This document shows, one piece after another, positions 9,432-54,964 of a DNA stretch of 56,033 bases; position 1 is the stretch's first letter; every line of letters begins with the position of its first letter. Source of the stretch: an uncultured Desulfosporosinus sp. GTDB taxonomy: Bacteria > Bacillota > Desulfitobacteriia > Desulfitobacteriales > Desulfitobacteriaceae. The notes beneath the pieces were generated by a model that was given only the letters and a program-made list of their open reading frames with translations, was not told the origin of the DNA and did not search any database. The DNA lies in contig CAKMJS010000058.1 in the NCBI GenBank assembly GCA_927405585.1, forward strand, positions 1 to 56,033, in the 5' to 3' direction. The position numbers and the translations under genes were made by a program.

Positions 9432-9434
9432 TAT

Positions 9435-9845: not shown

Positions 9846-9853
9846 TAGTCTTT

Positions 9854-9882
9854 ATAATACGCGTATTAATATTGTTTGTCAA
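9854..9882 (-). promoter_or_regulatory. trp operon promoter
   Basis: TTGACA (9877-9882) and TATTAT (9854-9859) are spaced by exactly 17 bases on the minus strand, ending about 10 bases before the T-box leader. The spacer holds a palindrome AATACGCGTATT (9856-9867), which may be an operator or chance. Confidence 0.8.
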
Positions 9883-9948
9883 CTAAAAAAATTGTCTTAA
9901 TCTTCGTGTATTGCCAGTTAACACACTGTTCTCATGTTCCTCTTGAAT

Positions 9949-9976
9949 TTGAACCACAATAGATTGATACTATAAT
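9949..9976 (+). promoter_or_regulatory. Promoter of the small membrane protein gene
   Basis: TTGAAC (9949-9954), 16 bases, TATAAT (9971-9976), about 40 bases before the ATG at 10015. It is back to back with the trp promoter. Confidence 0.6.
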
Positions 9977-35853: not shown

Positions 35854-35967
35854 TTTCAATTTTACCTTTTGTCATTATGAATCACTCCATTCAGCACTCC
35901 CATTATTAGCCTAATCGAAAGTAGTGTCATATCGACAAGTTCTTATTCAGTTCAACCCTAATTAGCA

Positions 35968-38900: not shown

Positions 38901-40074
38901 TTATAAGATGGTTCTCATCAATAATCTTATAGTCGATACTACTAATTAGAAGTTGTAATAAAGTTTGAAAAGCTTCATCTGGATTTTTATTTTTTAAATC
39001 AATCCAATAATATCTAGATACTTGTTCCGAAAGTAAAAGTAATAACTGACTTTTTCCACTCCAGACATTCCCCCATAAATTAATCCATTTGTATTGATTA
39101 ATGGATCCACAAATACTTTTTACTAGTTTGCTTCTGTTACTTCCATTAAAAACATGTTGTGGATGAAAAAAGCTAAGCTTGTTATTGCTAACATTTATCG
39201 TATATCGAGATTCTATTGGTAATAGGTTGGTATATAACGAGTTACTGCTCATCGCATCTTGCACAGAAGACCTTTTTTCTAGATCAGCAAATGCTTTTTC
39301 TGACATTACAGCTTTACATAAAGATACAGCAGATTCAGCAGCGATTTGCTGGTACTCACTTTTATTTTCATTTTTGTTTCCATCTGCCCAGTCACATATC
39401 GCCTTTACGATAATCCATTCATTAATCCCAGCATTAGCAGAAGCGCTATATACGCCAAAACCCTCCATTTCTCCGCCAATTGCATTCGGAAAGCTCTGCT
39501 TTAAATTATTCTTAAAACCATTGTTATCAACCAATTTCTCACCTGAGACTATTAGTCCAACATGTTTCCGTGCTTTACGCCCTTTCTCTAAAACAAAGTT
39601 CCAATTAAACATATTCTGGAATCGATTTAACAGCAGTTTCCCACTTTCTGGAATATTTCCTCTATAAATTGTTTCACTTTTAGAAATTCGCGCACTTTCA
39701 TAATTGACAATAGCTTGCGAAACTAAAACATCTCCTATTTGTTGTTTTTGTGCATCCATTCCGAATGCAATACCAACCATAATAATCGCATTGGGATTCC
39801 AATGTCGAATAGCATCACTTACCGTATTAACTGATGAATCTCTTCCAACTGCACCCATGCTACCACATTGAACATGTATAACATTATAAATGCCTAATTT
39901 CCCTATATGATATGTTCCGTTTTCCACAAAACACTTTTCAACCTCATCATAATTATCCAATGGACTTAACTCTTCCAATAAAGAAAACGTTTCTCTATCT
40001 GTAGCTGTTACCATAAGGAATAAAATATCACTATGGAGTTTAGATAATGCTTTCTCATAGTTGCTAATATTCAT
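35968..40074 (-). CDS. Nucleosidase-STAND NTPase-TPR protein (putative anti-phage sensor/effector)
   Basis: The 1368-residue protein has three parts. Residues about 15-255 are a PNP/MTAN-type nucleoside phosphorylase fold: QCGSMGAVGRDSS, IMVGIAFGMD, GGEMEGFGVYSA and the catalytic Asp in KAICDWADG. Residues about 310-560 are a STAND P-loop NTPase with LWGNVWSGKSQLLLLL (Walker A) and NTVFLIDDIPIL (Walker B). Residues about 640-1330 are helical repeats, TPR-like, a likely ligand sensor. In related conflict proteins, sensing of a phage product drives ATP-dependent oligomerisation and switches on the N-terminal effector, here cleavage of a nucleoside or nucleotide. AAGGTGGG precedes the ATG. AT-rich DNA, consistent with acquisition. 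Confidence 0.82.
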   Translation of the reverse strand: MNISNYEKALSKLHSDILFLMVTATDRETFSLLEELSPLDNYDEVEKCFVENGTYHIGKLGIYNVIHVQCGSMGAVGRDSSVNTVSDAIRHWNPNAIIMVGIAFGMDAQKQQIGDVLVSQAIVNYESARISKSETIYRGNIPESGKLLLNRFQNMFNWNFVLEKGRKARKHVGLIVSGEKLVDNNGFKNNLKQSFPNAIGGEMEGFGVYSASANAGINEWIIVKAICDWADGNKNENKSEYQQIAAESAVSLCKAVMSEKAFADLEKRSSVQDAMSSNSLYTNLLPIESRYTINVSNNKLSFFHPQHVFNGSNRSKLVKSICGSINQYKWINLWGNVWSGKSQLLLLLSEQVSRYYWIDLKNKNPDEAFQTLLQLLISSIDYKIIDENHLITTFLNNFEENTVFLIDDIPILPRDHKLLNLLLNLCHIGEQRQIRLVTTGNQKLTSIVRNDCMLHAINIPPMNEEEVKEILQHFKAPDRILDSKVNTWLAATNGRTPAIIMALIKYLEDNNWNINNNVFDAIIYSNAGEVSFELQRLINHTIPNEETRELLYRIAIVGHEIPQDYIPYIASTFPPVQHTMERMNELFGQWVLLDNEGQYNVPSSIKNIAEKNVSYELKKQVSLVVAEQIIKKRTLNQFDVTRLIGHFLQAEQYDDAGNVYIRALWELDNSDYTYDPFMFTTFWSTLPLPIKMNDDLKCRIRILQIKVFSKLNKDISFAIENLIECSEKQESLYYYLLIGAATIGLSNTNVALDLFHRALIKGVNIDFHGSDSLPMNIMSGITFLTVAQIKDLAQLKKWFENLKLINFKLIEEACEHKGFYASIFIAVERVLFKAIEPTSTKKLLIETREVFSKMQEYGQKSNWLFFYALAAREQLQLINTHDSYQEAGTFYMSTMLTCKDNQLSGFLITSMMSIISSDKKDYEYAKRLIKQALTFEVNEDYLLLEKVNLHLTLSSILDDEDPEKSIEETQKALDIVVPTFEWGLAYNLKIYGEHLINIYLHGRTKQYINLYYEVAKLLLENEQFDGREEIIAIWCHVLIYIVNDIVYNTKPMMYGEEEYVSPRRRIFINDKASEWFLNNHSEDKLYFALFLISDLLSFYGKIIETQEIIREAVIQKSILPETNVRNNMGLAVLVSPFIWLQTIQCNMIPDAFNLLNSAYDYLNENTPSNDVFKDFLTMHFFMITVSFINKYIEASRDSQAKILKSFQTEIINFCNTYKSFPLAVKYKEMIMIFINNNFTSNDLLNIGNNFKTSFPELQVMAYLLSTAELPITQSTLQIQINTLQYISFRIKPNDAFYRIEYLQYLKNTWLNLLNGENRLNSDLNKAKRLMSDDAVITPKLKDIKHVLKLLKNGCNVQLEEEITKWLFD

Positions 40075-40838: not shown

Positions 40839-41372
40839 TTAATCGCTTGCCAATCGGCATAAATCATAGATCTTGTCATTCTCAATCATAGAATTATAGC
40901 GTTCATTGTACTCGCTAATGAACTTAAATATGTTCTGCAGATATTGATCCATTTCTTTAGATTCTTCCATGATTTTTTCATATAGAACCTCTATTCCGCC
41001 TAAAACATACTGTTCAAACAACTCATCTCCAGCTTTGCGTTTTCCTTCATCTTTATCATACCTAAAAGCTCTATCCATTCTTTCTTCTAGAGATAAAGTG
41101 TCTTTTTGAGCAAGTAACATAATGAGCCTATAATTATAAGTTAACACGTCTAACTCCCCTTGAAGTTGCTCGGTATGAATACTTGTATCATCCTTCAGCT
41201 CATTGTCCACAAGAGCAGTTCTACCATAAACTATCCCAATAATTGGAGCAAAAATATACACATCAAGGTTACGGTTAAACAACTTAATACCGTTGCTTAC
41301 ATTAAGTATGGAGTGTAGTTTTTTCATATATTCTGCGTGCTTGCCTTTAAGAATTATATTTTTCTTGAACAT
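40839..41372 (-). CDS. 177-residue protein closing the phosphorothioation operon
   Basis: The start is the ATG at 41370-41372 (AGAGGTGATTCT upstream), four bases after the ATPase stop, so the two are surely co-translated. The N-terminal part, KHAEYMKKLHSILNVSNGIK then LFNRNLDVYIFAPIIGIVYG, could be a small DNA-binding unit. The rest is helical and charged (LSLEERMDRAFRYDKDEGKR; YLQNIFKFISEYNERYN). I do not recognise a family. The position, directly after a DndD-like ATPase, is that of a small accessory subunit such as DndE or one of the Ssp restriction components, but the sequence does not prove this. Confidence 0.7.
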   Translation of the reverse strand: MFKKNIILKGKHAEYMKKLHSILNVSNGIKLFNRNLDVYIFAPIIGIVYGRTALVDNELKDDTSIHTEQLQGELDVLTYNYRLIMLLAQKDTLSLEERMDRAFRYDKDEGKRKAGDELFEQYVLGGIEVLYEKIMEESKEMDQYLQNIFKFISEYNERYNSMIENDKIYDLCRLASD

Positions 41373-41376
41373 AGAA

Positions 41377-43395
41377 TCACCTCTCACAAATTTCAGACTG
41401 AGTAAGTGTGCTCTTCTTAATTAGATACTTTGCTCCAATTATGCTCCCCAAATGCTCCTCTGCCACATCACCATCTGTATCTTTAATAAAGAAAACAATT
41501 TGTTGTGCAATTTTAGGCAACGTATCACAGATATTTTTAATGCGTTTCTTATCAAACGCTGATAACGGTGCGTCCATCACTAGCGGATAACCAGCTGCTT
41601 CGTAGAATATTCTATCATCTTCTCCAACCTCTTTATTCGTGCCGGATACTTCCTGACTTTTCTCTTTCGCCATCTTAATAATGCCCGCAATAAATGCAAA
41701 GATAACGGAATAATTCTGCGCTGTTGACCTCTCCAACTCATCCTCTGAAGTATCTGTATCCATTACACTAACTCCGATGTTATATTTGTCATCGACCTTA
41801 ATAGCAATCCCGCCTTCATATATATCGGAGAAAATCTCGTTTATGTACCTTTCTAGCCTTTCACGTGTTACCATCTCTTGATAGTGGTAAGTCTTAACCA
41901 ACTCATCAAATAAGTGAAATGCATATTGCCTATAAACTTCAAACTCTCGGTTTTTCTCATCAACAAGAATGAGTTTATCCTTTTCAGCTTCGAGATTTTT
42001 TTTGTTACTCTTTACTGCACCAAGTCTTTCCGATTTCTCTCGTATCTCCTGCGAAAATTGAACTACTCTTTGTTCATCCTCAGCTTGCTTCTCTTTTAAT
42101 GCTTTGATTTTCGATGTATCACTTAAATTGTTGTAAAGTGTAGTCATTTCACGAGTTTTTAATGAAATAGAATCTTCAATTTCCATTATCCGCTTAATCG
42201 AATTGGTTAACATATCAAAGTACGTTTCAGATAGTTGAGTTTTTTCCTTTGACGTTTTAGCGAACTGCCCAATCATTGTGCCAATAGACTTTGGCGGTAG
42301 GTAATCTATCACTTTATACAATTCTTTTACAGCATTTGATCCAGCATCAAGTTTGGTTCCACATATACAAAATCCTCTCTTAAGTAAAAACTCGATGGTT
42401 TTCTGGTGCATATCGGGGATACCTTTATCAAGCTTGTCTGCAGATGCTAATTCTGTCAATGATCGTTCAATAAGCGGTTTAGCCAAAAACGAATGAGTAT
42501 TCTTATTAAAATAGTTTAGAAAGGTTTTAATTGCTTCGTTTTTAATTATACTAAGTCTTCTTATTTCTGCCTCAAGCGAATTATACTTTGTACGAATTTC
42601 AACCGCATCGGCATAAGATAGTACCTCCTGTTTAATAGCGGCAATTTGCTCTTGATAATATTTAATTTGTGGTTCTAACTCAGCGATTCTCCGGTCTAAC
42701 TCCTCATATTCAATCTCAAGCCTACCAATCCTTCGGCTTAATTCAGCAATATTTTTATTACCAGCTTCGTCAATCTTGTTATTGTACCTACCAATAACAG
42801 TATGATTCGTTGTAGATGGTTTAAGATGGTTTATAGCGTTCATTATTGCAGTTAGGCCTACCAAACTTCGAACTGCTTCGGAAAATTGTTTACTGCGTCC
42901 TTTTTCAATTTCATCGCTCATAGTCTTAATTCTCTCACCATCAAAGAAGAAGAATTTCGACAATTCGTACGGCAACATTTTTTTTACAAATATTTTTGAC
43001 TCGGACTCGGTCATATATTTTTGACTACCGTTCTTCTTATATTTAATAGTAAACTCAGTGTTTTCCTCTTTCACCGCATTAAAATCACGTTTGAACGGTT
43101 GCCGCCTTGAAATTATGTAATGGTTGTCATCATGATTAATATATATGTCAACATTTACGTATTCTTTAGAATTCGGGATCATACTGTCCCTAACATTACG
43201 ATTGATAAGCTCCTTTATTCGAAAATCATTTTCTCCGTATAAAGCCCACAGGAAGGCTTGCGCTAATGTTGTTTTACCTGCTCCATTCTCACCCATAATT
43301 ACGGTAATATTCTTGACTGGGTCAGTTGCGAAGTCAATTGTATGCTTCCCAGCAAATTGTCGAAAATTCTGAATATCAATTTGTTTTATAAGCAT
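41377..43395 (-). CDS. DndD/RecF/SMC-like ABC ATPase
   Basis: The 672-residue ATPase begins LIKQIDIQNFRQFAGKHTID with Walker A in IMGENGAGKTTLAQAFLWAL (about residues 33-52), as in RecF, SbcC and DndD. Two coiled-coil arms (about 205-265 and 410-480) flank a zinc-hook-like GFCICGTKL (one CxC visible near residue 341). The C-terminal half has the Walker B/D-loop PLVMDAPLSAFDKKR (about 603-617). Such proteins scan or clamp DNA in an ATP-dependent way. In Dnd systems DndD is essential for modification; here the gene lies in the downstream half of the operon, where restriction genes of Ssp systems lie. Its start overlaps the small gene 43386-43562 by 10 bases. Confidence 0.8.
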   Translation of the reverse strand: MLIKQIDIQNFRQFAGKHTIDFATDPVKNITVIMGENGAGKTTLAQAFLWALYGENDFRIKELINRNVRDSMIPNSKEYVNVDIYINHDDNHYIISRRQPFKRDFNAVKEENTEFTIKYKKNGSQKYMTESESKIFVKKMLPYELSKFFFFDGERIKTMSDEIEKGRSKQFSEAVRSLVGLTAIMNAINHLKPSTTNHTVIGRYNNKIDEAGNKNIAELSRRIGRLEIEYEELDRRIAELEPQIKYYQEQIAAIKQEVLSYADAVEIRTKYNSLEAEIRRLSIIKNEAIKTFLNYFNKNTHSFLAKPLIERSLTELASADKLDKGIPDMHQKTIEFLLKRGFCICGTKLDAGSNAVKELYKVIDYLPPKSIGTMIGQFAKTSKEKTQLSETYFDMLTNSIKRIMEIEDSISLKTREMTTLYNNLSDTSKIKALKEKQAEDEQRVVQFSQEIREKSERLGAVKSNKKNLEAEKDKLILVDEKNREFEVYRQYAFHLFDELVKTYHYQEMVTRERLERYINEIFSDIYEGGIAIKVDDKYNIGVSVMDTDTSEDELERSTAQNYSVIFAFIAGIIKMAKEKSQEVSGTNKEVGEDDRIFYEAAGYPLVMDAPLSAFDKKRIKNICDTLPKIAQQIVFFIKDTDGDVAEEHLGSIIGAKYLIKKSTLTQSEICER

Positions 43396-43562
43396 TTGAC
43401 TTCCTCCTCAATAATCTTCTGGAGTTTAGTTACCATTTCACTGTCACCTGTTTCTTTGGTTTTTTGATTAGCATTCTCAGTAAATATAATTCTCATGAGC
43501 ATCTTTCTAACACGATTCTTCTCTATGTTTACACCGTTCCTAATTTCTGTATTGTCTTTCAT
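43386..43562 (-). CDS. 58-residue protein of the phosphorothioation operon
   Basis: The ATG at 43560-43562 is preceded by GGGAGGAAGAG. The product MKDNTEIRNGVNIEKNRVRK, then MLMRIIFTENANQKTKETGD and EMVTKLQKIIEEEVKCL is helical and charged and ends with a cysteine. It overlaps the ATPase gene by 10 bases and follows the helicase gene by 21 bases, so it is translated within the operon. I find no family. A small bridging subunit between helicase and ATPase is plausible. Confidence 0.65.
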   Translation of the reverse strand: MKDNTEIRNGVNIEKNRVRKMLMRIIFTENANQKTKETGDSEMVTKLQKIIEEEVKCL

Positions 43563-43583
43563 CACTCTTCCTCCCAATATATT

Positions 43584-45746
43584 TTAGTAATATTCAACTT
43601 CTTCATCAGTATAGATATCATACGCTTCAGAAATATCATCAATAAGCTTGTCAGCGTCATAAGGATTAAGCGACAAGTCCTTAAACTCGATAATGCGCTT
43701 TAGCTCATTGCGGACTAAGGATTTGTCTTTATTCATCTCCTCAACTGTTAGCTGTTTGACTGTATCTAGTGGTCTTGGAAACGTTACGAAATCATAAATA
43801 ACCGCATATTCCTTGCCTTGAGCAAGACGCAATACTCTACCTCGTCGCTGTATGTACTCCTTTGGATTGGTCGTACTGGCTAAAATGAAGGCCGCCTTTA
43901 TCATTGGGATATTTACGCCTTCATCTAAGCATTTTATCGCAATAAGAGCTTGTAAACTGTCGCCCTTCTCGAACTCTCTTTTGAGAAGTTTACGTTCCTC
44001 ATTGTCCTCTCTTGAAGTAAACTGTGAAACCTTCATATTCAAATCATCGCCCAATTTTTTAGTTATGAAATCAATCTGGCGAATATCATCAATATCGTCA
44101 TCAGACTCTTGCGCAAATAACTTCGTAGCCCCGCAATACACCAAAAGGTGAGTAGCATCTCTAAAATCTTCCATAAGTTCAACCAAAACAGTGGCTTTTT
44201 GAATAGCACCTGCAACAACCCTCGCACGTTCCAACGCTTTCCGTTTTCCTTTCTCACTTAGCCTGTTTTTACCGTTTTTCCCCTTTATTAAGCACCTTCC
44301 GATTTCATGCGTTAAGATACCATAGCGTTCTAATTCAGCTTCGGAAAGAGTAATAAAAACAGGATGATAATAGTACGGAGTAAGTTTCTTCTCTCTTATT
44401 GCCCTCTCTAATCCATACTCAATACACTTATCGCCAAAATACTTTTTGAGTTTGGCTGTTCCTTCTTCATCATTATGTCTTTCAAAAGTAGCCGACAGCG
44501 CAAGTCTGTATTTATAAACATCACTTAAAGTCTGACTTATATTCAGCGCTCCAAAATTGTGAGCTTCATCTACTACAAGCAAAATATTACCTCGAAGCTG
44601 CAGAAGTTCTTTTTGCACAACCTTTGACGAAAATGTGGCATTAGTACACACAAGACAAAAAAACTTTTTAATACCTAAGTTAAAGTTAAATACAGTATTT
44701 TTTATACGTTTTTTATAATCATTTTGTTCCGATCCGCTATGACCAATTATAGGATTTATATTGAACTGTTTAATATCATCTACCCATTGTTCCACTAAAT
44801 GCTGATATGGGCATACTACTATAACAGCCAAATTACCCTTAAGATGGTCATATAGCCGAACAATACCACCTAGTCCTGTAAAGGTCTTGCCTGTTCCGGT
44901 AGCCATATCAAAGATACCTCTATAATTACGCTTTTCCCATTCATCTATGGCCTCAATTTGGTAATCGTGTAACTCTACATTCTGCGGAATATCAGGTCCT
45001 AAACGATATTTTGCTGTTTTCTCTAATACGAATATTCTTTCTCCAAACTCATTCTTATCTATATCGTAATTGGGGGCTGCTTTTTTATATCTATCAATAA
45101 TTTCTTGCTTTAGGTTTGGGAAGTCAACGATGCGTATATTAGGTTCACAATCATTCCAAATCGATGCAAACGCATTTTCCTTTGAAGCTACACGGTCTTG
45201 TTCACCTTTCCAAGAGCAAAACACATCTATAGTTTCATAATTTATTTTCATAGCCGTTGCAGACTCATTCATCGAACCGGAAAAGGCAACCTTGTTGCCA
45301 GACTCGTCACAGATAATGCCCATCTTTTCATGGTACATTCCCATTTTATCCTCATCTTCGATAAAGGCTATTTTGATGTCTAACACGCCATCCGATATAA
45401 GATTTGCTAAAAGATTAAGCCGGTCCTGCTCATACACATCTTTTGCTTCTCTGAGTTCACGCACTACAGCTTTTTTAATTATGTTATCTCTCAATTCATA
45501 TCCTTTGCGTATTGCTTCCACATCTTCCGCTGATAAATATGGAGAAGCTACTAATAGCATATTACCACCATTTTCCACAAGTGCTGCTATGCCTTTAGAT
45601 ATTTCAACAAGCGCTGAGGACGAAAAAAATCCGACGGCTCTTTTATATGACACTGCTTGTTGTAACAAAGGAATATAAAAATCCTTAGCCATATTGTCAA
45701 GCAATGAGCGATATTCACTTTTGATTTCTATATCCTGCAAGCTCAT
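43584..45746 (-). CDS. SF2 helicase with N-terminal phospholipase D-like domain
   Basis: In this 720-residue protein, residues about 1-215 look like a PLD-family nuclease domain, with VGFFSSSALVEISKGI and the HxK motif in MYHEKMGIICDESGNKVAFS followed by GSMNESATA. Residues about 255-680 are a superfamily 2 helicase: ELHDYQIEAIDEW (Q-like), MATGTGKTFTG (Walker A), VVDEAHNFG (DEAH), LALSATFER, and motif VI in YIQRRGRVLRL. PLD-helicase fusions cut or remodel foreign DNA in several defence systems. It lies downstream of sspA after a 300-base stretch of decayed sequence. This is the likely nuclease/translocase of the restriction half. Confidence 0.85.
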   Translation of the reverse strand: MSLQDIEIKSEYRSLLDNMAKDFYIPLLQQAVSYKRAVGFFSSSALVEISKGIAALVENGGNMLLVASPYLSAEDVEAIRKGYELRDNIIKKAVVRELREAKDVYEQDRLNLLANLISDGVLDIKIAFIEDEDKMGMYHEKMGIICDESGNKVAFSGSMNESATAMKINYETIDVFCSWKGEQDRVASKENAFASIWNDCEPNIRIVDFPNLKQEIIDRYKKAAPNYDIDKNEFGERIFVLEKTAKYRLGPDIPQNVELHDYQIEAIDEWEKRNYRGIFDMATGTGKTFTGLGGIVRLYDHLKGNLAVIVVCPYQHLVEQWVDDIKQFNINPIIGHSGSEQNDYKKRIKNTVFNFNLGIKKFFCLVCTNATFSSKVVQKELLQLRGNILLVVDEAHNFGALNISQTLSDVYKYRLALSATFERHNDEEGTAKLKKYFGDKCIEYGLERAIREKKLTPYYYHPVFITLSEAELERYGILTHEIGRCLIKGKNGKNRLSEKGKRKALERARVVAGAIQKATVLVELMEDFRDATHLLVYCGATKLFAQESDDDIDDIRQIDFITKKLGDDLNMKVSQFTSREDNEERKLLKREFEKGDSLQALIAIKCLDEGVNIPMIKAAFILASTTNPKEYIQRRGRVLRLAQGKEYAVIYDFVTFPRPLDTVKQLTVEEMNKDKSLVRNELKRIIEFKDLSLNPYDADKLIDDISEAYDIYTDEEVEYY

Positions 45747-45812
45747 GGTTTCACCTCTGTTTCTGCATTCTTTGATATTGTTAAAGAGTTAAAAAACTCT
45801 CCCATTAGCAAA

Positions 45813-46042
45813 CTAATAATATTTTCTTAAAGCGTTTGAGATGTTTCCGTTTGTATCTTTCATCTCCTGCTTGATGCGTACCAACGTATCGTACATTTGC
45901 CATAATCGTTTACGATAGCATCCGTGAGGAAATAAAATGTCGTTCTACCATTCTATCCTTATTAACCCGTGAACGTACTACCTTAGTTTTGCTGACAATA
46001 TTTGAATTAGCACGTAAAAATTTCATATTCGGTTTCACTCAT
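45813..46042 (-). pseudogene. Decayed small gene between sspA and the helicase gene
   Basis: Three overlapping frames give pieces of one protein: MSETEYEIFTC, then SKTKVVRSRVNKDRMVERHF and ISSRML, then YRKRLWQMYDTLVRIKQEMK and DTNGNISNALRKYY with a stop at 45813. Two or three frameshifts would join them. The family is unknown. A hairpin AGAGTTAAAAAACTCT follows at 45785-45800. The loss leaves a 300-base gap in an otherwise tightly packed operon. Confidence 0.4.
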
Positions 46043-46053
46043 AATACTCGCAT

Positions 46054-47211
46054 CTAATCATTATCCTCGATGTACTCTAACACTTCTTGTAGCTTTTCAA
46101 AATCGCTGTCATCGTTAAAATAACTGACACTAAACCGAACTGTACCAGAAGGTAAAGTGCCTAAAAACTCATGGGCATATGGGGCGCAATGTAGTCCTGT
46201 TCTAACTGCAATATCGTGCTCGTTCAAAATTTGACCGATACTGTCACTGCTGTAACCATCAAATACACAAGATACTACACCTATGCCTATTTCTTCATCT
46301 ATCGGACTCACGATTTTAATATTGCCGAAAATCTTTAACACTTCTAACAACCTTTTATGATTTTCCTTTTCTTTTTCAAAAAGTGATTCGATACCAACTT
46401 TCTCAATCCATTTTAAGGCTGCATTTAATCCCGAAATCGCCATAATATTCGGACTTGCTACCTCATACCTCTCCGGTATTGTTTCTGGTAGGCCTTGGTT
46501 TGCAGAATCTACTCCAGTCCCACCATATAGCAAAGGCAATGGTTTTACTGCACTTGAGAAAATAAAGCCAGCAACACCCAACGGACCATATAAAGTTTTA
46601 TGACCGGCAAATACTGCAAAGTCAATAGCCCCACTACTTAAATCGGTGTCTACCAGTCCCGCAGTTTGACACATATCAATCACATTGATAGCATTATAAG
46701 CCTTTGATAAGACACAAATCTTATCAACAGGAGCCACCACACCACATACATTGCTTGCGTGGCTTACTACAACAATATTTGGCTTATTCTCTGCAAACTG
46801 ATACTTTATTTTCTCTAGATCATAAATAAAGGTGTTTTTATCCACAGCCAAAGTATGGATATTCAGCTTATAAATGCTTTGCAGATGATTAATTACCCTT
46901 GTAACGGCGTTATGTTCAAAAGGGGATATATAAATGTTATAGTAATCGCCGATGGATAACCCTTGTAAAATGATATTAAGAGCCTCTGTTGCTGTATGAG
47001 TAAAGACCACCTTTTTATTGGGACAATGAAACAAATTTAGTAAAAGTGTCCTTGTATCTGTTACTAGACTACTTGCAGTAAGGGCCAGCTTGTGCTGCCC
47101 TCTACCTACATTGACTCCACACTCTCGATAAAATTTATCGGTAAATAAATAGACTTCCTCAGGCTTTGGAAATGTTGTGGCAGCATTATCAAAATAAGCG
47201 ATTCTATTCAA
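46054..47211 (-). CDS. sspA: Cysteine desulfurase of the phosphorothioation system (SspA/DndA-like)
   Basis: This is a 385-residue class V PLP enzyme that removes sulfur from cysteine and passes it as a persulfide. The N terminus AYFDNAATTFPKPEEV, the PLP region VVSHASNVCGV, the Schiff-base lysine in FAGHKTLYGPLGVAG (about residue 204) and the catalytic cysteine in RTGLHCAPYAHEFLG (about residue 340) are intact. The TTG at 47209-47211 with TTAGGAGGG upstream is the best start, 13 bases after the sspC stop; an upstream extension would lie inside sspC and is not needed. Here it is embedded after sspC. It should donate sulfur to SspD. Confidence 0.8.
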   Translation of the reverse strand: MNRIAYFDNAATTFPKPEEVYLFTDKFYRECGVNVGRGQHKLALTASSLVTDTRTLLLNLFHCPNKKVVFTHTATEALNIILQGLSIGDYYNIYISPFEHNAVTRVINHLQSIYKLNIHTLAVDKNTFIYDLEKIKYQFAENKPNIVVVSHASNVCGVVAPVDKICVLSKAYNAINVIDMCQTAGLVDTDLSSGAIDFAVFAGHKTLYGPLGVAGFIFSSAVKPLPLLYGGTGVDSANQGLPETIPERYEVASPNIMAISGLNAALKWIEKVGIESLFEKEKENHKRLLEVLKIFGNIKIVSPIDEEIGIGVVSCVFDGYSSDSIGQILNEHDIAVRTGLHCAPYAHEFLGTLPSGTVRFSVSYFNDDSDFEKLQEVLEYIEDND

Positions 47212-47224
47212 CAGCAAAGCCCTC

Positions 47225-50200
47225 CTAACACATCTTTTCAAGCAGTTCCATGAGCACCTGGCGCTTTTCCTGTTGAGAAATTGCCTGCCCCATTTCTTCA
47301 AGTGACGTTGTGATTTCGTTTAAGAGCAATTTTGCTCTGTCACTATATTCTGACTTACTGAACGTCTTAACGACCTGGCTACCAGCTTTGTCCATAAAAA
47401 CAATTTTGTACATTTCGGAATCATTTTCATTACCCTCTGTGTAATTATTATCAAAGTCCTCTACAGTTTCCTTAAAGGCAGTTAAATCTCTTAGGAACAT
47501 TTCTATTGTGTTTGAATTCCAATCGTCAATTCGTAATGCTGTGACAGCTTTACCTAATCGTTCCATAAAGATTACTTGATCATTAGTTATTGACTTCATA
47601 AGTTCAAGGATTTTACTCTCGTTATTAGCAAACAAAAAATTAATGGTAGTTTCATCGAGAGATTCATACCAATCCTTAATAACAGATGTAAGACTTGCAT
47701 TATTGGTGTTTTGTTTTCCAAATATGGTTTTGGCATCTTTAATCAGCACATTGATAAGGCTGCCCTTTGCCAAATCAAAGACTTGTTTAGTTGCTCTGAT
47801 ATTATCAAGAACCATTAGATTAAAGTCATTCATACCAAAGAATTTGAAAATTTCTTCAAAAAGATATTCTCTGGAATTGTTATTAATCTGTTTCAAACTG
47901 TTTATAAACTTTTTTTGTTCTCTCGGAACAGGTTTAATGGGCTCCTTGCTTTTGATACCACAATAGATTGTGCTCATTTCTTTAGCGTACTTTGGTAGCG
48001 ACATATACCAACGGTTCATTGCGAGCACAATAAAGGAAAAGCTGTTATATGCCTTTTCTTTCTCAAGGATATATTCACTAAAGATGTTTTCAAGTTCCGT
48101 CATGTACTGTGCTTTATCCTCGTTCCAGTCCTCTAAGAAAACCGAATATTCATCAGGGTTTTCATTGATGCTGTTTAAGAGATCGGCTGTGATTTTTACC
48201 TCGTGGTGTTTATTTTTTATAACCAGGTACTTTTTACAATGATGCAACACTGCAGCAATATAAATAGGGATAACACCTTTTTTCAATCCAATACCGTTTT
48301 GGGGAAGAATTAAGGTATTATACAGCACACGGAAACTCTGACCACCAGCCACATTAGCGCCTGTAAAAAAGTTTTGTATGGTAGCCAACATGTTCAGCAT
48401 ATTTACATCATCAGGGTTTAAGTTGATAACTGGAACACTATCTGCGTTCTGCAAAACACCTGTCTGAATTAGGGTACTTCGCATAATGGATACATCTTGT
48501 CCTGTACCAGTCAACCCTAAGTTAGTATCCAGTTCGTTTTCCAAAAGACCTATTATCAACTTTGTACGGCTGTTGATAGCAACGGTCGGGAGTAGATTCT
48601 TGTTGATAGATTCGTTGTTAATAACCGGAGTGTAAAGATAGATGTTCTCACAAATATGGGAAAGTAGAGTGGAAATCTGTGCTTTTCGGTACAAATTCTG
48701 TTTTTCACCCATATAAAAATATTCCGCACCACCTGTTTCAGGTCTTGCGTAAGAGAATATGAAGCTTCCTATAACTTCCTCTAAATCCTCAATATAAATT
48801 TCATATTCATCAGCAAGCAAATCATCATCTATCACAAGGGATTTAAGTTGCTTTACTGCACTATACTCATATGCGATCTTTCCAATTTCGGTATAGCTGT
48901 TCGGTACAACAAAAACAATTCTATTATGGTTGTGCTGATTGCTCAAAATCGCCTTTTTAATAAGGTCTATTTCTTCTTCGCTTTTAGGGATTATTGCATA
49001 AACCACTCCGGTTGCATCAGTTCCTTCAATTTTCCTTTCCCAATTCTCCACAGACCAAAAGTCAGAACTGTCGATAAAAATAAAGTCAAAATAACGGGTA
49101 ATTTCCTTTTCATCGTTGTATCGAGTTGGATACATAAAGCTGTCAAACGTGGATTTATTCAATATCTCCTTTACGCTTAATATGCTTTTATTTTTCTCAA
49201 TAGTTTTTGTTATTTCACCAGGGATATCTACGCCGCTACTTTCTTTCAATTTTAAGTAGTTATTGCTTCGCTTTAAATAAATAATACACTCTTTGTCAAT
49301 CAATTCAGACAACACATTGCCAATTGCTTTTGTGTTTCCAACACAGTCTTGGAAAGTATCAGAGATAATGTTAAAAATAGGTGGTAGTTTCTCAAACTGC
49401 TCAATGATATAAATAAGTGAAATCGTCTTAATTATCTTTGCCCCAAGAGAGTCTGGCTCAACCTTTAGAAGTACATTAGAAGTGAGCTTATACAGCTTAT
49501 GCGTTTCGCTTGTATAAGGCTCTTTTCTAAGTAGTGGCTCAAAATAGTCATAAATGTAATCGGGGGTAAGCATGGGAAAATCACCCTCAGCTATTTTCAA
49601 AAACATAGACAGGGTGTATTTCTGATCTGATGACAGAAAAGTAAACAAGGTTCGCTCATTCTGAGCAACCTTTTCCGACAATCTTGGTAATATAAACGTT
49701 GAGATAGGATGCAGAGGATAACAGCCCATGATTACTGTCTGCACCATATTATCGTCTTTTTTATCCAACACTCCATTTGCAGCAAAACGTTGGGTCAAAT
49801 CATTAAATCTATCTTGGTTTTTCTCGCAAAATGTATTCCAAAATGTTTTGTCTTTCTTTATAACAGCAGCAATAATCTCGTACATCTGTGAAAAGTTGTT
49901 GTGTAGATTGATATGCTTAAATCTGCCGGACACACCACGCCATCCGTCTACTTTTTCTTTTGGTAAATTGTTGTCAATATAATTAGAAATATCCTTATGG
50001 CAAATGAGCATCAAATGAATCTGTTTATTTCCGCTACGATCACACTTTTCCGCAAAGTCCTGTAATAGCTTGATATCACTAATGGTTGCAGTCGCAATGC
50101 TTGACTCCAAGTATTTGCTAAACTCGTCATATATAATGTAGACGCCGTCATAACCTTTCGTCTGAAGCTTTTCCACTACTTTTTCATAAAGTTCTACAAC

Positions 50201-50860
50201 ATCAAATCCGAGAAACGGATTAAAGGTGCTACCGGAAGTAAGGGAAGGATATAATTTTTCAAAACGTTCATAAGCATTAACATCATACTCTTTCAGTGCT
50301 AGGATAAAATTATCCACTGGTTCACTCAAATTCTGTGCAAATTTTCCGTAAGTATCTGGATAGTCTTCCTTCCAAAGACGCTCTATTGTATCGATAGAAG
50401 CCTTAAAGTTGGTTTCCGGCATCAAATCAACTAAGTTTTCTGATTTTAAGGCCTGTTGCAAAGCATTAAGAAAAGACTGCGTAAGACTTGCGCTACTTCC
50501 GCTGACAATGATAGGGAGCAGTTTTTTATCACTGTTTATATAATCAGCCGCAAATTCATAAAGATTCGGATCGTGTATTTTCATTTTCCTTAGGAGCATT
50601 TCAAACAAAGCCATATTTTTCTTAAAAAGAAGTGACATAAGCATAAGGATTATATGCGATTTGCCCTTACCGTAAGCCCCAATCAATATTCTTGCCCTTT
50701 GAGCTACGTTTTGGGTTGTGCTAAGAAGCACATCTTCCAAAACATCAAAGGACGACATAGTTGGTATAAAGTTTTTCACTTTTTCATCATTATGTAAATC
50801 ATAGGCAATGTTGACTGAGGTTTGAAACCCTTTGGCAACATCAATCTTTTCGTTAAACAT
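47225..50860 (-). CDS. sspC: Large P-loop ATPase, SspC-like (BrxC/PglY-related)
   Basis: The 1211-residue protein has Walker A in RILIGAYGKGKSHIILML (near residue 57) and Walker B in YIIYDEFSKYLESS (near residue 237). A long helical and alpha/beta C-terminal body follows, with no other known domain visible. This is the architecture of the large ATPases of the Ssp phosphorothioation, BREX (BrxC) and Pgl (PglY) systems. The ATG at 50858-50860 with CTAGGAG upstream is preferred; a GTG at 50926 would overlap sspB. Its place between the DUF4007-type gene and the desulfurase supports SspC. The role in sulfur insertion (ATPase needed for modification) is known from the family. Confidence 0.75.
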   Translation of the reverse strand: MFNEKIDVAKGFQTSVNIAYDLHNDEKVKNFIPTMSSFDVLEDVLLSTTQNVAQRARILIGAYGKGKSHIILMLMSLLFKKNMALFEMLLRKMKIHDPNLYEFAADYINSDKKLLPIIVSGSSASLTQSFLNALQQALKSENLVDLMPETNFKASIDTIERLWKEDYPDTYGKFAQNLSEPVDNFILALKEYDVNAYERFEKLYPSLTSGSTFNPFLGFDVVELYEKVVEKLQTKGYDGVYIIYDEFSKYLESSIATATISDIKLLQDFAEKCDRSGNKQIHLMLICHKDISNYIDNNLPKEKVDGWRGVSGRFKHINLHNNFSQMYEIIAAVIKKDKTFWNTFCEKNQDRFNDLTQRFAANGVLDKKDDNMVQTVIMGCYPLHPISTFILPRLSEKVAQNERTLFTFLSSDQKYTLSMFLKIAEGDFPMLTPDYIYDYFEPLLRKEPYTSETHKLYKLTSNVLLKVEPDSLGAKIIKTISLIYIIEQFEKLPPIFNIISDTFQDCVGNTKAIGNVLSELIDKECIIYLKRSNNYLKLKESSGVDIPGEITKTIEKNKSILSVKEILNKSTFDSFMYPTRYNDEKEITRYFDFIFIDSSDFWSVENWERKIEGTDATGVVYAIIPKSEEEIDLIKKAILSNQHNHNRIVFVVPNSYTEIGKIAYEYSAVKQLKSLVIDDDLLADEYEIYIEDLEEVIGSFIFSYARPETGGAEYFYMGEKQNLYRKAQISTLLSHICENIYLYTPVINNESINKNLLPTVAINSRTKLIIGLLENELDTNLGLTGTGQDVSIMRSTLIQTGVLQNADSVPVINLNPDDVNMLNMLATIQNFFTGANVAGGQSFRVLYNTLILPQNGIGLKKGVIPIYIAAVLHHCKKYLVIKNKHHEVKITADLLNSINENPDEYSVFLEDWNEDKAQYMTELENIFSEYILEKEKAYNSFSFIVLAMNRWYMSLPKYAKEMSTIYCGIKSKEPIKPVPREQKKFINSLKQINNNSREYLFEEIFKFFGMNDFNLMVLDNIRATKQVFDLAKGSLINVLIKDAKTIFGKQNTNNASLTSVIKDWYESLDETTINFLFANNESKILELMKSITNDQVIFMERLGKAVTALRIDDWNSNTIEMFLRDLTAFKETVEDFDNNYTEGNENDSEMYKIVFMDKAGSQVVKTFSKSEYSDRAKLLLNEITTSLEEMGQAISQQEKRQVLMELLEKMC

Positions 50861-50891
50861 AAATTTATTATCTCCTAGCTTGTGCGTTATT

Positions 50892-51770
50892 TTAGTTGTT
50901 AATTGCTCGGTAATATTCTCTAACACACCCCAAAAAGTTTATTTCTCTTTCGATCCGAACAACATCAAGTCCAGCGGTGCGAACCACCTTGATGTACCCC
51001 ATAAGTTCAATTTTATAAAGTAGATTGGTTAATGTGATTATATCCAAGTTAAATACCTTACCAGCGTTAGAAGAATTGTTTTGAATCGCTGAAATTTTTA
51101 TTTCACGTTGTCCCCCAGCCTGATCCAAAATAACCGCAAGCAAGATCAGTGGATGCAAGGTATCCTTTTTCGGGGTGGTTTTCTTGTATATCTTTTCTTT
51201 TTTGTTAACAATGTCAATAAGTCCAAGCTCACCCAAAGGACAGTCGATATTGCTCTCTGGCTGTACCTTTTCGGGATTTGACTTGAAGCGTGGAACATAG
51301 GTGTTAACAATACAATTGTAATCATCCTCTAATGAACGCTCTGATACCTCGTCATCATTTATGCGAATATAGTTATTTAATTGCACTACAAAATCATCTC
51401 TTGTGAACTCAGACAATTTAAATTCATTAAAGAAATAGTACCATGCAGTGGCTTCAGATTTGTTAGTAGCAAGTTTATAGTGGAGGAGCCATAGCGTACC
51501 TATTTCTTCAATATAAGGATCGTTTTCATAAACAGCTATGCCAAAATCAGTGAAATTCTGCACCTTTCGTCCATTAGCTGGTTCATCTGTAAGCCCTACT
51601 GCCTGTAACCAATAACGCAACGCCTTTACCATATTGGCCCCTATGCCTAAAATATCCATAGGGTTTCCGTTAGCACCCATGAAAACCTGAGGGTCATTTC
51701 GAACATTTTTCATACCTTTATTTAGCCAACCTTTTCTAATAAAAAAGGTGTCATGCGCTCTAAACTTCAT
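50892..51770 (-). CDS. sspB: DUF4007 protein, SspB-like nickase
   Basis: The 292-residue protein has the DUF4007 pattern: KFRAHDTFFIRKGWLNKGMK at the N terminus, then FMGANGNPMDILGIGANMVK, ALRYWLQAVGLTD and GTLWLLHYKLATNKSEATAW. In studied Ssp systems SspB is the nickase that opens one DNA strand for sulfur insertion, so modification is single-stranded. The ATG at 51768-51770 has TTAGGAGTG upstream and lies 17 bases after the sspD stop; a longer frame to 51854 would sit inside sspD. The family call is good; nicking activity is inferred from characterised relatives. Confidence 0.82.
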   Translation of the reverse strand: MKFRAHDTFFIRKGWLNKGMKNVRNDPQVFMGANGNPMDILGIGANMVKALRYWLQAVGLTDEPANGRKVQNFTDFGIAVYENDPYIEEIGTLWLLHYKLATNKSEATAWYYFFNEFKLSEFTRDDFVVQLNNYIRINDDEVSERSLEDDYNCIVNTYVPRFKSNPEKVQPESNIDCPLGELGLIDIVNKKEKIYKKTTPKKDTLHPLILLAVILDQAGGQREIKISAIQNNSSNAGKVFNLDIITLTNLLYKIELMGYIKVVRTAGLDVVRIEREINFLGCVREYYRAINN

Positions 51771-51787
51771 TATTTCACTCCTAAGAA

Positions 51788-53503
51788 TTAATCTTTGGTT
51801 CTCAAATATTTTTCCATTGAACAGCCGCCCTCTAAATACTTCGCAGTAACACACATCTTACAGTGCTTACATTTCTGCTCATTGATAGAGTAGGTATCGC
51901 CATGGATCGAGATAGCGCCATACTTGCAAAGAGACTCACATTTTAAGCATTTTCTACAGGCATTGAATTTCCTAACCTGATAGCCTACCATACGTTGTAA
52001 GTCGTCGTGCGTTGCTACGTTCAAGGTCTTAATCTTAACCGCATAATCGTATCCATCCTGCGAAAACGGCTGAATAGATAGTATCGGTACATTGGTTTTA
52101 ATATCTACCACGATGGTTTCATTGATGAGCTTTCTGCCTAATTCCGGTGCAATTCTGCCGAAAGGATTAAAAAGATGAATGAAACTATAGTTCATCGACC
52201 TGTTTAGCATATAAAGCTTAGCGTTTTCTTCTGCGGTACAGTTAGTGAACTTTATCTTGACGTCCTGAGCTGCAGCAACACCATTGCCGCCTTGTCGGGC
52301 TTTCCATTTACCTGTATCAACATATATCTCCGGATCAGGCTTTCCAATTTTCTTTGCAAAGTCAACCAAGAAGTTCCTCCATCTCTCGGCCTGTTCAGAC
52401 ATATAAATCTTCGAAAGAAACTGTGCTCTTTCGTTATTGTTCGGACAACACCAACAACCCACGCGATCATATCCTAACCGATAAGCATCGTTAAAGTCTA
52501 ACTGTTCTCCCAATATGTAAAGCCATATATCAATGTCTTTCCAATGGAAAATCGGGGAAGCAACCTTTTGTTTTTGTATTTTAACAGCTTCCGCGTTATC
52601 CTCAATTCGTTTATACTTACTTCGGCTTACAGATTCACACTTGCGGATGCCGTAAAAAGTCAAAATACTTCTATTACGATACATATTGTTTAAAACACGG
52701 GTTATCGGACCCGTCTTAAACATAGAACAACACCAGCGAAGCATACGAGCTGGTGGACCAATGTCCTCGCATACTTCGTAAAAATCTTGCTCTTTATTTT
52801 TTGCCACCTTGAAAATTGCTTTTGGATTTTCCCTTCGAAATCGATCTGCATACTCCAGCGTAAGCGGAAATTCTAGAGTAGTATCCCCGAAAATATGCAC
52901 AAGGCACGGATTGCTTAAGGCTCTCGTTGCCAAATCTGCTGTGACCGTTGAATCCTTACCACCTGAGAATGAAATAACGATGCTTTCCGGTGAATAGTTA
53001 CTTGCAACAGTTTGAATGAATGAATACGCTTCGTCTTTAAGACTATTTAACCGTTCTTGATTTGCACAAACAAATCTGTTAATGAAATCATTATAATACT
53101 CATAGGTGTTTTGAGCTCTATATTTTTCAAATTGTTGAATGACCTCATTCACGTCAACTTGATGAAACAGGGATAAGGGTAGTGCCTTTGACTCCCCATC
53201 TATATAATACCGGTTACCTGAACACCAGACTGAGCTCTCTATATAGGCTAACGGCTTGTCAATAAGTATCTCAAGCAATAATCGTTCTTCAGGAAATACT
53301 GGCCGTAGGTCCACACTTAGATAAGCCGTAGAGCCAGCACAAACTGGGCATGTAGTTTTACTTAATTCATTCGCTAACTTGATAATCGGAGTTTTGCATT
53401 CTTTACACCAATATATTTCAATAGGGATGTCTTGTTCTGTAGTGCCTCCACACAGTTCGCAAACCTCATCAAAAGTCTCTCTATTACATTTTTTACACCA
53501 CAA
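51788..53503 (-). CDS. sspD: PAPS reductase-family ATP pyrophosphatase, SspD/DndC-like, with zinc ribbons and ferredoxin domain
   Basis: The 571-residue protein has two N-terminal zinc ribbons (CKKC...CELC and CKEC...CPVC, residues 3-56). The PP-loop ATP pyrophosphatase domain has SFSGGKDSTVTADLA near residue 173 and a conserved ILTFYGIRKCES, DIDIWLYI and GCWCCPNNN core like DndC. A 2[4Fe-4S] ferredoxin-like C terminus follows (CRKCLKCESLCKYGAI and CKHCKMC, about 523-560). It should activate the DNA backbone with ATP and insert sulfur from SspA. The start is a TTG (53501-53503) after GGTGGTGAT; a TATAAT box lies at 53535-53540. First gene of the operon. Confidence 0.85.
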   Translation of the reverse strand: MWCKKCNRETFDEVCELCGGTTEQDIPIEIYWCKECKTPIIKLANELSKTTCPVCAGSTAYLSVDLRPVFPEERLLLEILIDKPLAYIESSVWCSGNRYYIDGESKALPLSLFHQVDVNEVIQQFEKYRAQNTYEYYNDFINRFVCANQERLNSLKDEAYSFIQTVASNYSPESIVISFSGGKDSTVTADLATRALSNPCLVHIFGDTTLEFPLTLEYADRFRRENPKAIFKVAKNKEQDFYEVCEDIGPPARMLRWCCSMFKTGPITRVLNNMYRNRSILTFYGIRKCESVSRSKYKRIEDNAEAVKIQKQKVASPIFHWKDIDIWLYILGEQLDFNDAYRLGYDRVGCWCCPNNNERAQFLSKIYMSEQAERWRNFLVDFAKKIGKPDPEIYVDTGKWKARQGGNGVAAAQDVKIKFTNCTAEENAKLYMLNRSMNYSFIHLFNPFGRIAPELGRKLINETIVVDIKTNVPILSIQPFSQDGYDYAVKIKTLNVATHDDLQRMVGYQVRKFNACRKCLKCESLCKYGAISIHGDTYSINEQKCKHCKMCVTAKYLEGGCSMEKYLRTKD

Positions 53504-54047: not shown

Positions 54048-54094
54048 ACACATCTCCTGTAGAATATTAGATATTTATTCTAAAGGAGATGTGT
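54048..54094 (+). promoter_or_regulatory. Hairpin that hides the ribosome binding site of the recombinase gene
   Basis: ACACATCTCCT (54048-54058) is perfectly complementary to AGGAGATGTGT (54084-54094), which contains the AGGAG ribosome binding site of the gene starting at 54101. The AT-rich loop is 25 bases. Read-through mRNA from outside would fold and mask the site, as in other insertion elements that block translation from impinging transcripts. Confidence 0.7.
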
Positions 54095-54100
54095 TGTTTT

Positions 54101-54964
54101 ATGACAAAGGATGAGGTTTTAGCCAAGCTAGTATTTGATGTGGAACTACGAGGATTAAGCAAGAACACCCAGAATGAATACTATTCCAGAGTTAAAGGTT
54201 TTCAGGATTACTTTAATAAACCTGCAACCGAGCTAGACATAGAGCATATAAGACAGTTTCTCCACTATCTCACCAAAGAAAAAAAGCTAGCTTCCGGATC
54301 GGTAAACACCTACAACAGCGCACTTCGCTTTTTGTATGGTATTACCTTTGATATTAATTTAGCAATAAAGAAGATTCCTCGTCACCGTAAACATCGTAAA
54401 CTCCCTGCTATCTTTACCCAAGAAGAACTCCAATCCCTTTTTAATGCCTGCGATAACTTGAGAGATAAGTGTATTCTTATGACTCTCTATAGTGCAGGGC
54501 TTCGCCTCAGTGAAGTGGCCGCTCTTAAAGTTTCTGATATCGACAGCAAAAAAATGCAGTTGTTTATTCGCAATGCTAAAGGCAGCAAAGATCGATATGC
54601 TATCCTCTCACAAGCAAATCTGGATATACTCAGAACTTACTGGCAAGCTTATCGCCCTAAAGAATGGCTATTTTACAGCAGGAATAATACTGGCACACAC
54701 CTTACGACCAAGGCCGTACAGAATGTATTTCACAAATATGTCACTAAAGCTAAGATCAATAAAAACGTGACAGTTCACAGCATGCGCCATAGCTTCGCTA
54801 CTCATTTACTTGAGTCTGGAATAGATATTTTTCGAATCAAACAGCTGCTTGGACACACAGATATCACCGCAACTTGCTTCTACTTGCATTTAGTAAAGAT
54901 TGAATCACTCAATGTAAAAAGTCCTCTTGACCAGATGACTGAACTGGACAAAGCCAATGGCTGA
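54101..54964 (+). CDS. Tyrosine recombinase (XerC/D-like integrase) of the IS91-like element
   Basis: The 287-residue phage-integrase-family enzyme has an N-terminal SAM-like DNA-binding domain (NTQNEYYSRVKGFQDYFNKP). The catalytic residues follow: Arg in YSAGLRLSEVAAL, His-x-x-Arg in HSMRHSFATHLLESGIDIF, LLGHTDI and the Tyr in TATCFYLHL. The ATG at 54101 is chosen because AAAGGAG at 54082-54088 is well spaced; an ATG at 54089 would overlap it. Its stop overlaps the transposase start by eight bases (ATGGCTGA), so both are translated together. It is likely a helper of element movement. Confidence 0.9.
   Translation: MTKDEVLAKLVFDVELRGLSKNTQNEYYSRVKGFQDYFNKPATELDIEHIRQFLHYLTKEKKLASGSVNTYNSALRFLYGITFDINLAIKKIPRHRKHRKLPAIFTQEELQSLFNACDNLRDKCILMTLYSAGLRLSEVAALKVSDIDSKKMQLFIRNAKGSKDRYAILSQANLDILRTYWQAYRPKEWLFYSRNNTGTHLTTKAVQNVFHKYVTKAKINKNVTVHSMRHSFATHLLESGIDIFRIKQLLGHTDITATCFYLHLVKIESLNVKSPLDQMTELDKANG

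Follow-up and report, generated by a model that had tools for sequence, protein, structure and literature searches.

Which effector serves the Ssp-type phosphorothioate (PT) writer of an uncultured Desulfosporosinus sp., and how could the two halves of its operon work together? The question is raised by eight consecutive minus-strand open reading frames (ORFs), all open, which run from position 53503 down to 40839 of the window, that is, of the whole stretch of DNA analysed: an entire contig (C58; 56,033 nucleotides) within a 4.48 Mb draft genome. A first-pass annotation had listed the genes in this order, taking the first four for an Ssp writer, the last four for an effector half and the whole for a possibly distinct combination, and these points stand. 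It had also called the downstream module new-looking, yet its genes are those of a known set, PbeABCD. Judged from its genes and by analogy with an archaeal relative, SspABCD-PbeABCD is probably a PT-dependent antiviral system of exchangeable modules. Both halves are known and already named in annotation libraries; their pairing is recurrent and, as far as our literature search reaches, undescribed. Published work is cited below from open-access passages of the respective papers.

The writer and effector halves of the operon

The profile comparison that the first-pass annotation had called for assigns the upstream genes to Ssp, with SspD appearing as BrxP, and the downstream genes to PbeA, PbeC and, weakly, PbeD. 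Family matches were obtained for seven of the eight genes, that of PbeD lying below its cut-off; PbeB has none. The PADLOC lists covered the eight operon proteins and, for PbeC, the best 25 of 79 matches. Given the strength of the PADLOC matches and the same gene order in other genomes, the eight-gene set is far from chance.

The first gene, sspD (51788-53503, TTG start at 53503), encodes a PP-loop (PAPS-reductase-like) sulfurtransferase of 571 residues, of a form common to BrxP of BREX type 4. Its PADLOC match to BrxP (4.7e-79) is much stronger than that to SspD (1.3e-12), and Pfam PF01507 is matched at 8.6e-32. The N-terminus looks zinc-ribbon-like by eye, the C-terminal region is ferredoxin-type, and the SGGKDS motif and eight C-terminal cysteines are invariant in 15 of 15 sequences. 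A ferredoxin-bearing PP-loop form occurs in BREX type 4 and in a subset of Ssp systems (PMC12839542). The next gene, sspB (50892-51770, ATG at 51770), encodes a DUF4007 protein of 292 residues that matches PF13182 (5.3e-87), PADLOC SspB (1.5e-63) and the solved SspB structures 6juf and 6lb9 (E 4.4e-27). In Ssp systems SspB is the nickase, and PT requires its nicking (PMC9239217).

The large AAA+ ATPase gene sspC (47225-50926) starts either at GTG 50926 (1233 residues) or, because homologues align only from about residue 17-28, at ATG 50860 (1211 residues). The protein contains the Walker A motif GAYGKGKS and matches PADLOC SspC at 2.1e-122 versus BrxC at 9.1e-48; SspC-type ATPases are of the ORC/Cdc6 kind (PMC10853773). 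Sequence searches of solved structures gave nothing for SspC (E 1) or SspD (0.001). The cysteine desulfurase gene sspA (46054-47211; 385 residues) starts with TTG 47211, directly behind TTAGGAGG; its product matches PF00266 (aminotransferase class V, 1.1e-71) and PADLOC SspA (1.9e-34) and holds an RTGLHC stretch, which we take to be the active-site region. For each of the eight genes, we infer the start codon actually used from the sequence.

A DUF4007 SspB, an SspC ATPase, a PP-loop SspD and a linked desulfurase SspA are thus all present. The PADLOC, Pfam and structure matches and the motif conservation, together with the ferredoxin-bearing form noted above, identify the upstream four as a predicted Ssp-type phosphorothioation writer with a BrxP-like SspD. 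The far stronger match of SspD to BrxP and the resemblance of SspC to BrxC could also be taken as traces of a degraded BREX type 4 locus. However, SspC fits SspC models better than BrxC models, a subset of Ssp systems has the same SspD form, and no PglZ or BrxL match was found in 20 window proteins (ten scanned with PADLOC and Pfam, ten with Pfam, PbeC by its best 25 of 79 matches), a search that left out the other window ORFs and the genome. We regard such an origin as very improbable.

Between the two halves lies a decayed small gene (45792-46020, minus strand), represented by tblastn pieces of 79% and 86% identity that are separated by stops; it is an open frame in locus L029 and is split in two by an insertion sequence (IS) in genome G086. 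The effector half begins with pbeA (43584-45746, ATG at 45746), whose 720-residue product fuses a PLD (HKD) nuclease domain (about residues 1-235) to an SF2 helicase. PbeA matches PADLOC PbeA at 2.2e-245 and TIGR04095 at 1.4e-148 (495.7 bits, below the curated cut-off of 600). The predicted structure of residues 1-250 (pLDDT 84.5) adopts a PLD fold, with SauUSI at Z 11.7, NucT at 11.3 and BfiI at 9.0, and Foldseek returns PLD matches of the same type at E 4e-6 to 7e-6. Residues H139, K141, D147, G157, S158 and N160 are invariant in 21 of 21 sequences; the earlier description of a helicase with a PLD nuclease domain is borne out by fold and residues alike. The intact HKD motif favours a nuclease step in PbeA but cannot choose its target.

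The second effector gene, pbeB (43386-43562, ATG at 43562), encodes 58 residues and has no family match in PADLOC, Pfam or TIGR profile scans. Near relatives give tblastn matches to E 6e-17 at the same position. We surveyed the gap between PbeA and PbeC in 86 loci where the two genes share a strand. Of these gaps, 81 fell within the size range examined; the longest ORF spans 43-95 residues (median 61) in all 81, and shuffled gaps reach that length in at most 5% of trials for 71 of the 81. Position, size, tblastn matches and this shuffle control are the grounds for calling the gene pbeB.

The third gene, pbeC (41377-43395, ATG at 43395; 672 residues), had been labelled an SMC ATPase. It is better described as an ABC ATPase with a CxC hook, of the type seen in DndD and PbeC: PADLOC matches are 1.3e-102 for PbeC and 1.6e-39 for DndD, and C343, C345 and G346 of the hook are invariant in 22 of 22 sequences. 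The last gene, pbeD (40839-41372, ATG at 41372; 177 residues), matches TIGR04062 ('phosphorothioation-associated protein 4') at 1.4e-5 (25.2 bits, below the cut-off of 74.25). Its AlphaFold2 model (pLDDT 89.5, 14 sequences in the alignment) resembles DndE (7x4e, 4lrv and 5wtu at Z 8.0, 7.0 and 6.7), the next row being at Z 2.3; by Foldseek DndE is top-ranked, but at a non-significant E of 0.72. The two genes said to match nothing known are hence pbeB and pbeD, small genes also in the founding archaeal case, where the products have 66 and 152 residues (PMC6459918).

The downstream four are, as their profiles and predicted folds point out, the known PbeABCD set, neither SspFGH nor new. PbeABCD has been re-annotated as a CxC ATPase system (PMC10853773), and the features of PbeA, PbeC and PbeD agree with this. 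We assign only the effector module to PbeABCD: no DndD/DndE writer pair of a DndCDEA kind stands beside it, the DndC-like PADLOC match being SspD and the DndD-like match PbeC. The idea of a variant of the sspBCD-sspFGH cassette draws on the shared writer family and on relatives such as L132, in which SspFGH occupies the same slot, but no SspF, SspG or SspH was matched in the PADLOC lists of the eight proteins (PbeC: best 25 of 79) and PbeA, PbeC and PbeD match families of their own, leaving it a negligible chance. The same lists contain no SspE match, in line with the earlier reading; the host genome has one DUF262/GmrSD_N gene on another contig, which does not imply SspE identity. The description of the two halves as 'fused' holds for the operon and for no single protein.

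Recurrence of the pairing

To follow the pairing, the window's own proteins were used as queries against 398 genomes drawn evenly from the host's phylum (Bacillota), with PbeA called at E 1e-60 or better and SspC at E 1e-20 or better. PbeA occurs in 23 of these genomes, and in 12 of the 23 (the window, L027-L036 and L046) SspB and SspC lie within 20 kb around it. A thirteenth linked case, G086, carries SspDBCA 79-91% identical to the window's and then an IS; its PbeABCD starts ~31 kb away, immediately behind a second copy of this IS with 99.8% identity (contig C18; loci L128 and L026). Because a single small gene is split into halves that lie next to the two near-identical IS copies, either the G086 operon was once whole or the assembly was misjoined at the IS. 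The 13 Ssp-linked PbeA are the closest relatives of the window's PbeA (at least 39% identity); the remaining ten (31-38% identity) show neither SspB nor SspC in the retrieved 20 kb.

SspC is present in 28 of the 398 genomes, and a partner could be assigned in 24: PbeABCD in 13, SspFGH-like genes in eight, a helicase with a GHKL-type ATPase in two (G206, G091) and a DUF262-like gene (by eye), with no SspE match, in one (G029). The other four (G039, G164, G214, G338) lie on short contigs or are unresolved. Two SspFGH-like calls (G056, G370) come from PADLOC and six (G135, G274, G073, G243, G070, G178) from blastp to those, the G073 call by its SspF-like part alone. Pbe is the commonest SspC partner in this sample (13 of 28), with the reservation that searching with the window's SspC tilts the counts towards its relatives. 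Fourteen of the 398 genomes contain both PbeA and SspC, where 1.6 would be expected (P 1e-12, kinship uncorrected); in one of the 14, G274, the genes are ~148 kb apart.

Beyond the sample, SspB and SspC stand beside PbeA in 22 of the best 80 of at least 145 named loci, a proportion that is not a frequency because the loci were ranked by likeness to Ssp-linked PbeA. Hosts include Anaerovibrio slackiae, Eubacterium sp. An11 and metagenome-assembled genomes (MAGs) of Solobacterium, Acholeplasmatales and Methanobrevibacter, as well as, for a second type of operon, Bacteroidota such as Hyunsoonleella flava and Alloprevotella tannerae. Host assignments of MAGs may be wrong, that of Methanobrevibacter above all. 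Of 18 complete sets, 17 show SspD-B-C-A-PbeA-C-D without interruption. A Selenomonas MAG locus, L058, which is also among the 22, has a DUF262-like gene (by eye; 7851-9971) between the Ssp genes and PbeA; it is 28% identical to one in L131, and L058 may pair a single writer with two effectors.

SspD-B-C-A-PbeA-C-D is also present on two gut scaffolds deposited under 'Bacteriophage sp.'; by eye, their flanking regions resemble bacterial DNA. The system is not typical of the viral contigs in IMG/VR, since only L150 and L151 among 79 loci have near full-length PbeA relatives (27% and 31% identity). Plasmid records with PbeA matches number 23, every one below 60% identity.

A PbeA tree was built from 89 of 103 loci, those with a best PbeA ORF under 500 residues being dropped. 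A locus was labelled Ssp when it had one SspB and one SspC blastp match at E 1e-3 anywhere in it; L117 carries the label on an SspC fragment only, and five loci with one of the two genes were kept apart as partial. In a Bacillota-type cluster 26 of 30 rows are Ssp-linked, and a Bacteroidota cluster of 13 rows includes seven Ssp-linked and three partial ones, both clusters with support 99. Dnd-linked and other rows lie between the two, and the pairing label requires nine changes on the tree. Holding both Ssp clusters together is rejected at p-AU 0.0188 (approximately unbiased test; 26-row subset, simpler model), a value that is optimistic because the groups were named after seeing the tree. The Bacteroidota pairing looks independent of the Bacillota one. 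Its operons have another SspD form (~368 residues) and start with the order SspB-SspC-SspD, in some cases with a DndB-like gene and/or SspA after SspD, and then PbeA. Order also varies within the Bacillota cluster, being SspB-C-D-A in L056 and L061 and Pbe before Ssp in L035; L030 of that cluster has a short SspD.

A probable PT-licensed effector and the separate histories of the halves

Known Ssp writers place single-stranded PT at a short motif (CCA). The writer described here should likewise make single-stranded PT, as in other Ssp systems (PMC8092258). SspA would draw sulfur from cysteine, SspD would carry it through its PP-loop and ferredoxin-type cysteine clusters, SspB would nick one strand at its motif, and SspC would power the insertion of the single-stranded phosphorothioate. 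On the effector side, the CxC ABC ATPase PbeC and the DndE-like PbeD would scan DNA as a pair, and PbeA would translocate by its SF2 helicase and attack through the PLD domain, so that replication halts; PbeB may gate or stabilise the complex. Since DndE can nick DNA and prefers nicked DNA (PMC9239217), the DndE-like nature of PbeD suggests that the PbeC-PbeD pair senses a nick or the PT state.

The expected role of PT is modelled on archaeal PbeABCD, in which all four pbe genes matter (PMC6459918). There, Pbe has no toxic or protective effect in cells lacking PT, even if these contain the Dnd proteins; virus that bears PT evades it, and the viral DNA remains intact while its replication is restrained (PMC6459918). 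These properties speak against a Pbe that attacks all unmarked DNA and poisons a host lacking PT, a possibility we rejected. Because of the PT dependence and the escape of marked virus, host PT most likely both licenses the effector and marks self. Pbe would be harmless and inactive without PT; in a marked host it would act on incoming unmarked DNA, and a PT-marked virus would pass.

For the comparison of evolutionary distances, 21 sets were entered (18 single-place loci, G086 from two places, L148 and L149), of which 18 are complete; nine incomplete loci of an earlier 28-locus set, itself with 16 complete, were left out. Among the 18, Spearman correlations are 0.51-0.85 within SspDBCA and 0.82-0.83 within PbeACD, but -0.10 to 0.26 between the halves. 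Of all 3:4 splits of the seven genes, PbeA-PbeC-PbeD against the rest is the best by far. Each half is co-inherited internally, and the histories of the halves are independent. Writer and reader would be cassettes that are inherited separately, stay together through their position and are exchanged between hosts. Similar independence was found for DndCD and PbeAC (rho 0.107; PMC6459918), and a review states that the two kinds of module evolve independently (PMC12707154).

For the pair formed by the window and G086, identity changes within pbeA itself: the first 300 residues are 81-95% identical by 60-residue blocks, those beyond ~300 only 45-66%, apart from one block at 88%. A breakpoint near residue 300 is kept for this pair alone. 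The wider idea that the PbeA nuclease domain travels with the Ssp module was dropped, as across 16 sets every part of PbeA follows PbeC and PbeD more (r 0.45-0.86) than Ssp (0.00-0.24); the first 270 residues track PbeC and PbeD less.

Several observations weigh against a PT-dependent system of this kind. Writer and effector histories are uncorrelated (Mantel r 0.07, p 0.29, 5000 permutations, 18 sets), where a motif-matched pair would be expected to show co-inheritance. Close Pbe sets stand without Ssp nearby in L052 and L062; a whole-genome search found no SspC in the L062 genome, and that of L052 (Peribacillus muralis) has one SspC with three stops, on the same contig ~3 kb beyond the locus. 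FAM83B (Z 11.7) and TrmBL2 (10.7), which are not named nucleases, share the PLD fold of PbeA, and because they score as high, the case for its nuclease activity rests on the invariant residues. Lastly, PMC10853773 questions the role of Pbe as a PT-dependent restriction module and puts forward a suicide model as well.

The same lack of correlation could mean that Ssp and PbeABCD work as two separate defence systems, brought into one operon by the clustering of defence genes, with this Pbe needing no PT. The window is indeed a defence island, with ApeA-like HEPN and PNP-type genes adjoining the operon, and PbeABCD also occurs in the company of Dnd, beside other genes or in places where no modification gene was seen (partly from PMC6459918). 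Against mere neighbours stand the gene order, kept across deep divergence, the nine label changes on the PbeA tree, several of them forced by well-supported branches, and the rejection of a single clade in the 26-row subset. As the archaeal Pbe is moreover inactive without PT (PMC6459918), we consider this explanation quite unlikely.

A suicide mode has been proposed for CxC/Pbe systems (PMC10853773): PbeB would be an inhibitor released by phage action, upon which PbeA cuts the cell's own DNA. The small size and fast evolution of PbeB would suit that role, but no trigger is visible in the sequence. The archaeal Pbe is non-toxic without PT and inhibits viral replication with the viral DNA left intact, behaviour with which suicide is still compatible (PMC6459918). 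On balance an abortive response appears unlikely, and a PT-licensed attack on unmarked DNA is the reading we prefer.

If the halves are not co-inherited, either PT itself is what the reader senses, or these writers share one motif, or the two halves function separately. SspABCD is known to couple to more than one effector (PMC8092258), and in our data SspFGH-like, DUF262-like and other effectors are further partners of the Ssp side. Tentatively, and with considerable doubt, we suggest that the Pbe reader senses sulfur (or the nick or PT state) and not the motif, so that writers and readers may be interchangeable. Pbe would then act as a generalist reader licensed by PT, having joined ORC-type Ssp writers on at least two independent occasions and ABC-type Dnd writers too, and recombination at and within pbeA could swap readers under a resident writer. 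By the same tentative proposal, one operon would hold two unrelated DNA-scanning engines, SspC-SspB for writing and PbeC-PbeD for reading. It has to face the case of SspFGH, another reader, for which a Dnd writer of a different motif could not replace the Ssp writer (PMC8092258).

Other partners, neighbouring genes and known systems

Further arrangements were seen around both halves. In L052 and L146, PbeABCD is followed by SspFGH-like genes. Seven loci (L038, L039, L042, L043, L044, L045, L151) hold PbeA-C-D-like sets with no Ssp or Dnd writer seen, and adjoin a protein with a B12-binding radical SAM-like start (by eye; 494-685 residues in L038, L039 and L042, which also carry an upstream protein of 1121-1156 residues). 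This protein is possibly another modification partner of Pbe-like effectors. In L130 (4713-6476, 2935-4716) and L136 (10239-11651, 8440-10257), the genes after an Ssp writer encode a PbeA-like helicase that lacks the nuclease part, a GHKL-type ATPase (by eye; in L130 it matches MzaB) and a third protein, 302-314 residues long; we regard this helicase-GHKL set as a further type of Ssp effector. DndB-like genes lie in or beside Ssp operons in L130 (7655-8908, PADLOC DndB 1.3e-20) and, 46-50% identical to it, in L107 (7586-8821), L113 (16106-17359) and L115 (8676-9929). A second, divergent pair of SspB-like and SspC-like genes stands beside the Ssp operon in L133 (7711-12840) and L134 (12948-18341).

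In the window, the defence island continues with an ApeA-like HEPN protein and a 1368-residue protein (34369-35859 and 35968-40074), the latter with a nucleosidase/phosphorylase-like N-terminus (PADLOC 'Effector, PN-superfamily') and a remainder that is STAND-like by eye. A tyrosine recombinase (54089-54964) lies on the opposite strand directly upstream of sspD, behind a 19-nt inverted repeat of 95% identity (54048-54066/54076-54094). At 13539-24488, a 3649-residue protein with DUF5018, NHL and fn3 matches is probably a large surface or secreted protein, its location being a guess.

The open-access literature passages contain no description of an Ssp-Pbe operon; supplementary tables or subscription papers may hold a mention. 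PMC7464106 counts strains with PT-modifying genes and pbeA-D, dnd and ssp unseparated. PbeABCD has previously been tied to DndCDEA or methylases (PMC6459918, PMC10853773), and 165 of 553 PbeAC sets had no modification gene nearby in a survey that predates the description of Ssp (PMC6459918). Of 2,678 sspBCD sets, 196 have sspFGH, 199 have sspE and 36 more have both (PMC8092258). The Ssp-Pbe pairing could supply the partner for some of the orphan PbeAC and sspBCD sets. Because the archaeal Pbe works only in a PT-marked host, the pairing also allows what a PT reader recognises to be tested directly.

Compared with known systems, the locus resembles BREX type 4 in its BrxP-like PAPS-reductase, DUF4007, BrxC/SspC-like ATPase and cysteine desulfurase, and differs in that DUF4007 is not fused to the reductase and that PglZ and BrxL are missing among the 20 window proteins scanned. 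SauUSI, an ATP-dependent PLD-helicase restriction enzyme (PDB 7clg), resembles PbeA in the fold match given above and in a helicase-profile match (5.8e-19). As a type IV enzyme, SauUSI acts as a single protein and cleaves methylated DNA, whereas PbeA is expected to work with PbeB-D and to spare marked DNA. The systems anchored by a CxC ABC ATPase share the HKD-SF2 nuclease-helicase, the small disordered protein, the CxC ATPase and the DndE cognate; their partners listed in section 16 of PMC10853773 are Dnd genes and methylases, Ssp being unnamed there. With SspABCD-SspE and SspABCD-SspFGH (PMC8092258) the operon has the SspABCD writer in common, the effector being PbeABCD instead. The closest counterpart is the archaeal DndCDEA-PbeABCD (PMC6459918), in which an identically ordered set of these four effector genes stands beside a PT writer; that writer is of the Dnd type, with DndD and DndE and double-stranded PT, whereas the one described here is of the Ssp type, with single-stranded PT expected.

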